A program made the translations under genes and the position numbers. Shown here in pieces: positions 10,643-24,509 of a stretch of DNA of 26,000 bases (position 1 is the first letter of the stretch; the number at the start of each line of letters is the position of its first letter). Source of the DNA: Pezizomycotina sp. ARF18 (Eukaryota > Ascomycota); contig AZLU01000192.1 of the NCBI GenBank assembly GCA_002224055.1, positions 1 through 26,000 on the forward strand, read 5' to 3'. The notes below the pieces were generated by a model, which did no database searches, was not told the DNA's origin, and worked only from the letters and a program-made list of their open reading frames with translations.

Positions 10643-13341
10643 ATGTCACAATCTCAACCATCGTTTGTTTACTCTCCTACGTCTTTCTTAATCCGGCCGG
10701 CGCCGAGGCCACCTTCTCAACGTCGCCAATCAATGCCGTGCCGATAGCAAGTATGAACGCGTTATCGATAAACAACTCAGGTACTTCTTTTTCAAGCATC
10801 AGCTCTGGATCTGGAGACAAGATTATCCGAAACGGGTGGCTCAAGTAAAAGAGGACGGTTTCAAAGGTTTCCTCTGGACGAAGAAATTTATCATTCTTCG
10901 AGAGCTCTCTCTGGACTTGCACCGTTCGGAACCGAAAGACATCACGTCATCGGGAACCCTGAGCTTGTCCATCCCTCTCAAGATATAGTCGGCGTCAACC
11001 GCGTGGACATGAAGCCGTACTGTTTCGAAGTTGTACGAACAATATCATCAAACCCGAACGTTCAGTACTCTGCCGATACACCAAGGAAGACGCTTTACGT
11101 CGCCGTCAAGTCAGATGGTGAACTTTATGCCTGGATTGATGATGTCTATTCGCGGTGCCCGACGATGGGTGGGTCTCAAACCCAACTAACTTCACCCACA
11201 AGGTCCACGTCGGCTTGACCCTGTTTCCGGTGGCTTCACCGGCCTGCCCGATGAATGGGAGAAACTCCTCACGGCCTCCGCGATCACCAAGGAAGATTAT
11301 GCTAAGAACCCCCAGGCTGTCATTGAGGTTCTCGAATTCTACAGCGATCGTCAAAAGGCCAACCAACAGGACATGTATGGTGGCATGAAGTCACCATCGC
11401 AATGAGCGCCCAGCGTCAAGTTGGTATGGGCATGGGCAACGACTCTGGAAACATCGCAGGTTCTTCGGGCACCGCCAGAGCTATCAGCAGATCGCCCAGG
11501 AGTCCGACGCCATGGCAAACCAGAAAGAAGCCGAACGTCGTTATCGCGATAGGAGAGGGAATACGAACGCCAGCAAGAGCAACTTCGGAATGAGCGCGAC
11601 AGCTTAGGAGCGTGAACGCGAAAACCAGAAGGAGCGCGAGAGACAGCGCCAAGAGCGAGAGCAAAGGGAGGCCGAACTGCTCGAAAGGAGCGCCTTTTGA
11701 GGAACAGGAACGCGCCGAACGGCTCGGGAAGAAGCTTACCAAAGGCAAGCTAGGAACGTGAAACAAGGACACGTAACGAACAGCAGGAGCTGCTTATCCA
11801 GGGAGGCGGTGGCAGCAGCAGCTCGTCGGCTCGCTACAATCCTATGAGGGCTGCTCCGCCGGCTCCAAGCACTCCAACTACCTCTACCCCTGTTCGTCAA
11901 CAACCGCCCGCTTCTCTCCGCAACCTAAACACGACTGCTCAACGACCCGCACCTCGCCACCCCAGTCGAACGGCTCGAGCTCCACCAAGGGCATTCTCCG
12001 TCGAGGCAGCCTGGGCAGACTCGTGCGCAGCAGGGTGCTGGTAGTACTAGCCAGAGTGCCGCGGCTCAACAAGCCAAGGCAGCACAGCAGTCCTCTTCTC
12101 AGCAGCAGGCAAGGGCTCCAGGTGCTAGCAATGGCACTGTTAAACCGTTGAACGTCCAACCTAAGCCCAACCAAGCAGCCCTCGCAGCGCAAAGCGCGGC
12201 CGAAAAGGCGTTGACAAAGAAGGACCGCGATGTTCAGAAGAACCAGCGCATCTCGAACATGAACGAGCAGCAGTCATGGAGAAGCTCAGGTCAGTTGTGT
12301 CGCAAGGAGATCCGAACCAGTCCTACACCAAGATCAAGAAAGTCGGACAGGGTGCATCTGGTTCCGTCTACGTCGCGAAGGTCAACGCATCGGCCGTCTC
12401 TCAGAGTGCTTTGACCCATCTATCGCAGAAGGGTGGAAGCAACAGGGTCGCTATCAAACAGATGGACCTCGCACATCAACCCGCAAGGAGTTGATTGTAA
12501 ACGAGATTCTCGTCATGAAGGAATCACAGCACCCGAACATCGTCAACTTCCTCGATGCTTTCTTGAAAGGCACTTCGGAGCTTTGGGTTATCATGGAGTA
12601 CATGGAGGGTGGTGCTTTGACGGACATTATCGACAACAATACCTTGGAGGAAGATCAGATTGCAACCATTTGCTTCGAGTTCGTAATCTCAGCACTCTAA
12701 CCTTGATCCAAATTCGTTTTTTTTTCTTCTAAAACTAACGTACTTCGTAACCTTATAGACTTGCAAAGGTTTGCAACACCTTCACGCCAAAACATCATTC
12801 ATCGTGACATAAAGTCCGATAACGTTCTTCTCGACGCGCAAGGACACGTCAAAATTAGTATGTTATGCCCATATTCTCCAGAATAAAATTATTCAAAAAG
12901 TTCATTCGCACTAACAATCCACTCCTGAAAAATAGCGGATTTTGGTTTCTGCGCAAAACTTACTGAGCAGAAATCCAAGCGCGCTACCATGGTAGGGACG
13001 CCGTACTGGATGGCTCCCGAAGTCGTCAAGCAAAAGAATATGGCTCCAAGTAGACATTTGGTCACTCGGTATTATGGCAATAGAAATGATCGAGAGTGAA
13101 CCGCCGTATCTCAACGAGGAGCCCCTCAAGGCACTGTACCTCATCGCTACCAACGGAACTCCCACGCTGAAGAAGCCAGACAAGCTGAGCAAGGAGCTCA
13201 AATCCTTCCTCTCGGTCTGCTTGTGTGTCGACGTCAAATATCGTGCGACAGCGGACGAGTTGATCGCTCACGAGTTTCTCCAGAAGGGTTGTCCACTGGG
13301 GGTCGTTGGCGGCTCTTCTAATGTTCAAGACCAAGTCGTAG
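10643..13341 (+). CDS. cla4: Cla4-type p21-activated Ser/Thr protein kinase (PAK), three or more exons
   Basis: This is the effector kinase of Cdc42/Rac GTPases in polarity, septation and septin control. Likely start ATG 10643 ([12 protein letters not shown]). Domains in order: Ser-rich leader to [14 protein letters not shown] domain about 10840-11165 ([37 protein letters not shown]); CRIB about 11170-11260 ([14 protein letters not shown], then [18 protein letters not shown]); a Gln/Glu/Arg-rich coiled-coil-like and Pro/Ala/Gln linker 11400-12270; kinase 12305-13290. The kinase keeps [12 protein letters not shown], the lysine in [22 protein letters not shown] and GTPYWMAPE, so it should be active. 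Introns: about 12679/12683-12758 (donor ambiguous) and 12858-12935, both with CTAAC-like branch sites. It ends [13 protein letters not shown] then TAG at 13339-13341. Spliced length of about 848 codons fits the family. About ten one-base losses break the frame, e.g. near 11216 (TTT to TT), 12481 (CCCC to CCC), 13037 and 13051 (GG to G). Confidence 0.95.
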
Positions 13342-22240: not shown

Positions 22241-24509
22241 TTATATGATATGATAAAAACCGGTGTTGTGCTGCTTCCCTTGATTACTGTAACCAGTTTC
22301 AGCGGAAGCCCTCCAGCAATAGCTCTCCAGGCATCGCCGCGCGGGCGTATTGTCTGTAGTATGGGGCGAAGAAGTGGTTGCGACTTTCGCTTTGTTAGCC
22401 TTCTTATTCTTAGTATTGGCGAAATTGCCCCATGCGCCCCACGAATTGGCCCAACTATTTGCGGTGCCGGTGAAGAACTCGTTGCGACTCCGATATCTTC
22501 TTCACATCTTCGTCGCCTTCCCAGTAAACGATATTCCTGGTCTCGCAGCAGAGGAAGTACTCGACGTCCTCGCTGAAGTGAATATTGTCTTCGACGAGAC
22601 TTCCGCCAGGGCGGATAAAACCCCGTATATGAGGAGCCAGTAGCCCCTCCTGCGCTCAGCGATATCTTTCATCTTCTTCCCGCTGGAGACCTTCCTCTCC
22701 CACGCTTTAAACTCCTTGACGATGTCCATCCGGTTGGACTTGTGTAGGTTATAACTCTGCGGTAGCTCTATGGCGACGCGGTCGGAGCCGAGCTTCTCCT
22801 TATTACATCGGACCCGTTTCGGGCGTGCCGCTGGTGATCGCGGGCCCGGTAGCTTCGGCATGCCATACGGCAGCGGCGGTGCTCGTTTAGCGACTTGTCG
22901 TGCGCCGCGAGCACGCGGCAGTAATCCTTCCAGTACGCGTAGTAATTCACCGCGTCGCTGGTCTGTAGCGACCTGTTGACGAGGAGGTCGAACAGGGAGC
23001 AAAAAGTCGTCGTGCAGGTCCATGGCCACCGAGCGGTTGAGCTCCTTAGAGATCCAGCGCTGCCGTCTATCTTCGTGTAGTACTGGTAAAGAAAACTTGC
23101 GGAACTCCTCGTATGCGCTCCTCCACGTACCCAAGGCTTGATGGTGTATACGGGGCGTTTGAAGCCACATCTTTTGAAATGGAACTCGTGGAGGCTCCAA
23201 TTGCCATATTCAGGCGTGCCTGCATGACCGAGTGGGCATCTTCCAGGAGGGAAAGGAGTCTTCCATCCTCAATGACCTCGAAGGCCTCCAATGCTTCACG
23301 CGCGGTAGCCTTAGTTAGGAGTCAGTATTTTTCGGCCTGAATATGTCTTCAAGAATAGAAAATAAAGCCCGGAGAATTTAAAAGCCTTACATTCCAACAA
23401 CGTGGGCAACGCCTCCTTGTAAAGGTTCTCTATCTTATACCTGCTCGCGAATATGAGCAGGTCAAGCGCCTTTACCGGATCGTTCCTCACGTCCCACAGC
23501 CCAGACCTCGTGATAAAGCTCCCAGCTCCTGGGCAACTCCGACGTCAGACCCCTCGAAGTACATCAGCATCCTGTCAGCGATATCTGTGAGTAAGTCTCA
23601 TCCCTTCCAGCTCCACACACGTGGAATCGAACATGCACGCGAAGACATTCCGAATGATGATGTAGTGCCTCAGCAGCTTGAAGGCGTCCGTCCTTCCGTC
23701 CTGTCGTCAGACTTGTCGGGCCAAAGTAGAGGCTGTACTTGGCGCCGGGAAGGACTCGTATCAATTTCATTATCGGCTTGCCAAATTGGCGATATGGCTC
23801 TTATGAAAATCCGATTTCGAGGAAAGCACGTGCGAGCTAACGAAGAAAGATGGCTGCCGTCTTTCACCCTTGAACAGAGGTATATGAGCGTGTCGCCTTC
23901 GGACGCCATAGTTCTATGACCTAATAAGATAACCGAATATATCAAAGTATAAATAAGCATATAATCCATATTCAATGTAATGTCTTAAGCGCAGGGAAAC
24001 AAAAGTGAAACTGAAGAAACAAAAAATCAAATTAAAACGAGAGGAATTATAATTATCCTTTCAGCCATTAATGCCCAAACTTCTTACCTTTTTCGCCTGT
24101 ATATAGAGGAGCATAATCGTACTCCTGTCCTCACCAATCCTTTTTGCCGTATCACAGCGCGCGGTTAAACCCAATGCTTAAGGTCGTCCAGTCCATTGAT
24201 CGACGTCACCTTACGTTTCTGAGACGCCTGTCTGCCCTTCCCAATAACCGTTATTTCATCCGCACCTTTATACGATCCCTGTCAAACGGCAGCGGTTGCT
24301 GATCGTCTGACACCGGTTGTAGTAAGGTAATCCTAAGATTGGAGATTTAGGCGTAACGGTCCCCGTGACGGCGTTGGCGTACCGCCAGCGATTGCCGCCG
24401 TATCTTTCGAAACTTGGGGTACCGCCGACGACGTTGGCCTGAGGGCGGCAGCAACAGGGGTCGTTGCATTGGAGTCCGTTCGCTTTTTCGTTCTGCGAAA
24501 GAATGCCAT
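22241..24509 (-). CDS. Lineage-specific protein with BTB/POZ-like domain, about 668 aa, three exons
   Basis: ATG at 24509 begins MAFFRRTKKRTDSNATTPVA, a basic disordered leader with VTSINGLDDLKHWV near its end. An intron at 23921-24087 joins YAPLYTGEK to GHRTMASEGDTLI in phase. The next part reads PSFFVSSHVLSSKSDFHKSH, IMKLIRVLPGAKYSLYFGPT, RNVFACMFDSTCVELEGM, DRMLMYFEGSDVGVAQELGA, SGLWDVRNDPVKALDLLIFA and SRYKIENLYKEALPTLLE. VSSHVLSS followed by a helical repeat with LDLLIFASRYKI resembles fungal BTB/POZ proteins. An intron at 23294-23390 joins LPTLLE to SLEAFEVIEDGRLLSLLE in phase. The rest (VNYYAYWKDYCRVLAAHDKS; KSNRMDIVKEFKAWERK; LVEDNIHFSEDVEYFLCCET) I do not recognise; it ends in a Trp/Asn-rich segment FTGTANSWANSWGAWGNFAN and a basic tail. 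The stop near 22241 is uncertain. Several one-base losses break the frame. BTB is inferred; partners and function are unknown. Confidence 0.58.
23294..23390 (-). other. Intron 2 of the BTB-like gene
   Basis: GTAAGG donor, CTAAC branch site and GAAG acceptor on the minus strand, 97 bases. Using this acceptor keeps LPTLLE-SLEAFEVIE in phase; the nearer AAG at 23310 would leave only three bases after the branch site and break the frame. Confidence 0.65.
23921..24087 (-). other. Intron 1 of the BTB-like gene
   Basis: GTAAG donor and ATTAG acceptor on the minus strand, 167 bases. The frame stays open across the junction. Confidence 0.7.

Follow-up and report, generated by a model that had tools for sequence, protein, structure and literature searches.

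Frame breaks in conserved genes of the Pezizomycotina sp. ARF18 assembly are probably consensus errors, mainly single lost bases, and not gene decay

The genome assembly of Pezizomycotina sp. ARF18 (GCA_002224055.1; 46.36 Mb in 408 contigs) carries, in the first 26,000 bases (hereafter the window) of contig AZLU01000192.1 (C192; 78,229 bases), a gene for 5-aminolevulinate synthase (ALAS) and a gene for a kinase of the p21-activated (PAK) type whose reading frames are both repeatedly broken. With a probability of about 0.96, these breaks and those found in conserved genes elsewhere in the assembly represent the consensus error of an insufficiently polished assembly, consisting mainly of single lost bases, and are not the mark of dead genes; the breaks are present in the assembled letters and almost surely absent from the organism, in which the ALAS and kinase genes are most likely intact. 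An earlier note on the same DNA had come to the same general view, that of consensus error rather than pseudogenes, and had in addition placed the breaks at homopolymers; the former part is upheld by what follows, the latter is not.

Frame breaks were called by aligning a protein profile or reference sequence to the DNA across reading frames, with both frame breaks and GT-AG introns allowed, and the robustness of the counts was judged by comparing six penalty settings. Eight genes spread over seven contigs, namely ALAS, the kinase and six HSP70 loci, were aligned in this way. To the question whether the method itself favors one type of error, simulations give a clear answer: with 87 losses and 81 gains introduced, the one-base events called numbered 75 losses and 73 gains, so that balanced insertions and deletions (indels) are called about evenly and an excess of losses is not produced by the alignment. 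As a control, bacterial dnaK genes gave no break in seven of eight loci (the same seven from which the profile had been built) and a single break in the eighth. Likewise, HSP70 and Cpn60 each occupied one open frame in seven of the eight bacterial genomes searched alike, the eighth (G001) yielding several partial matches.

The ALAS profile comprises 405 positions and derives from 33 bacterial proteins of alphaproteobacterial type, retained out of 80 bacterial loci by an open reading frame (ORF) filter that dropped the other 47 before the counts. On the minus strand of the window the catalytic core (Pfam Aminotran_1_2) was aligned from 19134 to 17818, corresponding to profile positions 2–400, and the gene continues past both ends of this stretch. 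In its 390 codons the alignment contains five one-base losses and neither gains nor stop codons, and the identical five losses were recovered under all six penalty settings. The nearest solved structures are those of ALAS, and the profile match covers the catalytic core across frames, the TIGR01821 cut-off being reached by no single frame. The aligned part is interrupted by one intron of 98 bases (18881–18978, minus strand) with GT-AG borders and phase 0. Nine one-base additions had been proposed for restoring the ALAS protein; five breaks were found independently, while the other claimed sites lie outside the reference, in the presequence and at the C-terminal end. As to the sites mentioned by position, those at 18512 and 17895 coincide with breaks and that at 17816 falls just beyond the end of the aligned profile. 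An intact second ALAS copy, named in the earlier note as one observation that would speak against error, was sought in the genome both by DNA and by profile, and no good one was found above the cut-off. The weaker TIGR01821 matches on contigs C264 and C201 were rejected as second copies, since they seem to belong to other enzymes of that broader family.

The kinase, designated cla4 in the earlier note, lies on the plus strand and was aligned to PAK stretches taken from phmmer matches, PAK1 serving for the kinase domain and PAK-alpha (1f3m_A) for the p21-binding (CRIB) stretch. The latter, at 11217–11354 (E 1.8e-14; 46 codons aligned), is unbroken and is followed by a PAK-like kinase domain, as expected for a PAK/Cla4-type protein; of this domain the N-terminal and middle part (12273–12679; 104 codons, 62% identity to PAK1) contains one one-base loss, and the C-terminal part (12929–13283; 117 codons, 70% identity) contains two. 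Altogether, three one-base losses are seen in the 221 kinase codons, which are free of gains and stops. Breaks were thus located at or near three of the positions previously listed (12481, 13037 and 13051), whereas 12792 was read only by eye from the ORF list; the break proposed near 11216 is consistent with the observation that the CRIB stretch and the codons preceding it do not share a frame. An apparent intron at 12381–12461 was not counted, as it is an effect of the reference, in which two stretches were joined although the residues that separate them are lacking. A PH domain would distinguish the Cla4 type; none was found by Pfam in the single N-terminal piece of the kinase that was scanned.

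The same condition extends far beyond the window. All six aligned HSP70 loci, situated on six contigs other than C192 and of up to 759 kb (C49, C70, C3, C208, C303 and C44), are broken at rates of 3.9–12.7 breaks per kb; a seventh match, a single stretch on C10, was left out of alignment and counts. The possibility that the error is limited to small contigs is ruled out, as the highest rate among the aligned loci belongs to the 759-kb contig C3. In the seven genes formed by ALAS and the six HSP70 loci (3219 codons, default penalties), 54 one-base losses are accompanied by six one-base gains, two two-base losses, four two-base gains and no stop codon, amounting to 66 breaks or ~7 per kb of coding DNA, and the earlier claim that losses greatly outnumber gains is borne out by these figures. 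The spacing of the breaks is consistent with random placement (59 gaps, Kolmogorov–Smirnov p 0.70). Coordinates alone, taken from neighboring matches within a locus, lead to the same picture, a frame change that leaves no room for an intron being seen in 18 of 23 HSP70 cases and in 9 of 15 Cpn60/CCT cases, the latter affecting six of eight loci. Breaks are therefore found genome-wide in essential genes and are not confined to one gene or one contig.

How the breaks could have come about may be pictured as follows: single bases would have been omitted from the consensus at scattered positions, far more often than added; the source may have been a long-read platform, and a low read depth may have been the cause of the omissions. 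Two kinds of repeated sequence are relevant here. In two abutting direct repeats, at C44:133336-133833 (L026:4837-5334) and C10:396904-397027 (L032:6905-7028), the copies differ by 22 indels and only 2 substitutions, and each pair is possibly one sequence assembled twice together with its read noise. The 17 one-base indels in these stretches affect a single letter in nine cases, a pair in seven and a run of seven in one, and two two-base indels fall in runs of five.

The second kind is an array of ribosomal DNA (rDNA) at C189:7257-61550, with six copies of a universal 18S site and a unit of ~10.87 kb. The successive spacings of this site are 10,818, 10,867, 10,867, 10,867 and 10,859 bases, three in a row being equal to the base. 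As probes, two stretches conserved in fungal 18S, 45 and 41 bases long, were used; both occur exactly in copies 2–6, whereas copy 1, which lies near the contig end, matched neither of them even when one mismatch was tolerated. The inner copies look clean, presumably owing to the many reads that such a highly repeated unit collects. The interval that follows copy 1 is 49 bases short, i.e., 4.5 per kb, and the seven aligned genes together have lost a net 44 bases over 9.66 kb, i.e., 4.6 per kb. The short interval fits losses of the kind that depth removes, although natural variation of the spacer or a degenerate end copy could give the same result.

That the genes are true pseudogenes, or that the contig is a decayed copy, would account for the broken state of the assembled frames, yet it is a very improbable explanation. 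It would have to hold for each of the eight genes subjected to frame-aware alignment, which lie on seven contigs that differ widely in size, and it is difficult to reconcile with the conservation of the residues between the breaks: the mitochondrial-type HSP70 on C49 retains 66% identity to the bacterial consensus in spite of seven breaks. Nor did the search of the genome by DNA and by profile yield a better ALAS copy. Furthermore, true decay should, as the earlier note had pointed out, add stops and substitutions to the indels. Since 3.0% of the single substitutions possible in these codons create a stop, decay with 66 indels predicts ~2 stops if each indel comes with one substitution, 6 if it comes with three and 16 if it comes with eight; under default penalties the number of stops is zero.

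Several observations weigh against consensus error and have to be set beside the above. The absence of stops would be unsurprising (P 0.13) if decay had brought only one substitution per indel, and under the other penalties the ratio of one-base losses to gains varies from 38/4 to 76/18 and the number of stops from 0 to 5. The breaks in two of the HSP70 loci are less sure, since identity to the profile is only 40% on C208 and 37% on C44, and two of the eight Cpn60/CCT loci, on C139 and C70, have no countable frame change. With regard to the duplicated stretches, the balance between indels and substitutions depends on the scoring: for the longer pair, default blastn counts 10 mismatches and 13 gap openings. 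In a third pair (L034), which is AT-rich and was excluded from the count, there are five substitutions and three indels. Finally, the argument proceeds from the assembled letters and not from reads. A further explanation would leave the assembly blameless: the bases would be truly absent from the DNA throughout the genome, and the frames would be restored at expression by an unknown insertional RNA editing, by frequent ribosomal frameshifting or by tolerant decoding in a fungal nucleus. Physarum mitochondria and Euplotes are systems in which one-base losses are made good at expression, and they do show such losses with conserved codons between them. Here, on the other hand, signals for frameshifting and slippage on long runs were looked for at the losses and none was found, slippery heptamers being present at 2 of 54 losses compared with 215 of 5344 background positions and no run of six or more lying within 15 bases of any one-base loss; the spacing fits a random one, one-base gains occur as well (six), the duplicated stretches display the same kind of noise, and five of the six rDNA copies are clean at both 18S stretches tested. 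Repair at the level of expression is accordingly so improbable as to be nearly negligible.

While consensus error is thus the preferred reading, its localization is a separate question. That the error consists specifically in shortened homopolymers is an unlikely proposition, in spite of the two named ALAS sites that match breaks and of the fact that this type of error is described for nanopore assemblies in the literature discussed below. The rule by which the sites had been chosen, that each addition lengthens an existing run, is satisfied nearly anywhere, because a run of two or more occurs in 2699 of 2787 background 12-base coding stretches (97%); with a short run nearly always at hand, homopolymer sites picked by eye lend weak support to this mechanism. 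When real losses are compared with 103 simulated random ones, they prove to be no nearer to runs: a run of three or more is found within 3 bases of 13 of 54 losses as against 27 of 103, and within 6 bases of 26 of 54 as against 42 of 103. A cruder comparison leans weakly to runs, 21 of the 54 losses having a run of three or more versus 863 of the 2787 background stretches (one-sided p 0.07). Simulations in which the losses were directed to runs depart from the observations in both versions tried: when losses are placed in runs of at least four, 67% of 101 sites retain a run of three or more within 3 bases, a share from which the observed one differs with p 3e-7, and when they are placed in runs of at least three, every one of 140 sites retains a pair, compared with 48 of 54 in the real case (p 4e-4). 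Of the 17 one-base indels in the duplicated stretches, a single one falls in a run of at least three, and A/T runs of up to 34 bases survive in the assembly. No concentration of the indels in runs was therefore detected, in a comparison that has little power to reveal a mixture of losses inside and outside runs and is compatible with such a mixture.

A/T runs of 15 to 34 bases number 64 in the window and L021-L040 (198,510 bases, 2,001 of them counted twice), far above chance, and may be natural or made by polishing.

Precedents exist for a genome in this state. In a report on Drechmeria coniospora (PMC7500977), fewer than one-sixth of 305 conserved genes were full length in nanopore-only assemblies of new genomes and, before polishing with short reads, most conserved genes were broken by small indels, as in the present case. 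The same report places the errors mostly in homopolymers and attributes to polishing an introduction of insertions in excess of deletions, as well as of long A and T runs, whereas here losses dominate and no preference for runs was detected. Similarly, the long-read small-genome assemblies described with Kastor (PMC12007338) contain one-base deletions that split genes and are detectable against relatives; unlike those found here, these deletions show a strong association with runs of two to eight bases and mostly follow four to five equal letters. Published nanopore errors look different from the present ones, for which no run preference was detected and among which A/T runs as long as 34 bases survive, although the polishing described for D. 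coniospora did introduce long A and T runs.

The breaks say nothing about the biology of the organism and constitute an ordinary artefact that is nonetheless misleading for automatic gene prediction. With ~7 breaks in each kb of coding DNA, gene prediction would recover few genes intact from this assembly, and until it has been polished it should not be used to claim that genes are lost, pseudogenized or lineage-specific, or that transposons are broken.

As to the remaining content of the window, no domain of a long interspersed nuclear element (LINE) or other transposon was found by Pfam on either strand of 1–4000 and 13401–17500, on the plus strand of 4001–7600 and 22001–26000, on the minus strand of 4001–5500, 6401–7600 and 22001–24700, in one minus-strand frame of 15001–15700 or in the single ORFs scanned; a LINE may lie in the rest of the window. 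Between the kinase and ALAS a promethin-like domain (PF16015, E 3.1e-10) is encoded on the minus strand at 15471–15704. Elsewhere in the assembly, repeat pairs at L037 and L039 suggest a filamentous ascomycete: most differences within the pairs are G-to-A changes, of which 28 out of 39 follow a T, and the dinucleotide indices at both loci resemble those produced by repeat-induced point mutation.

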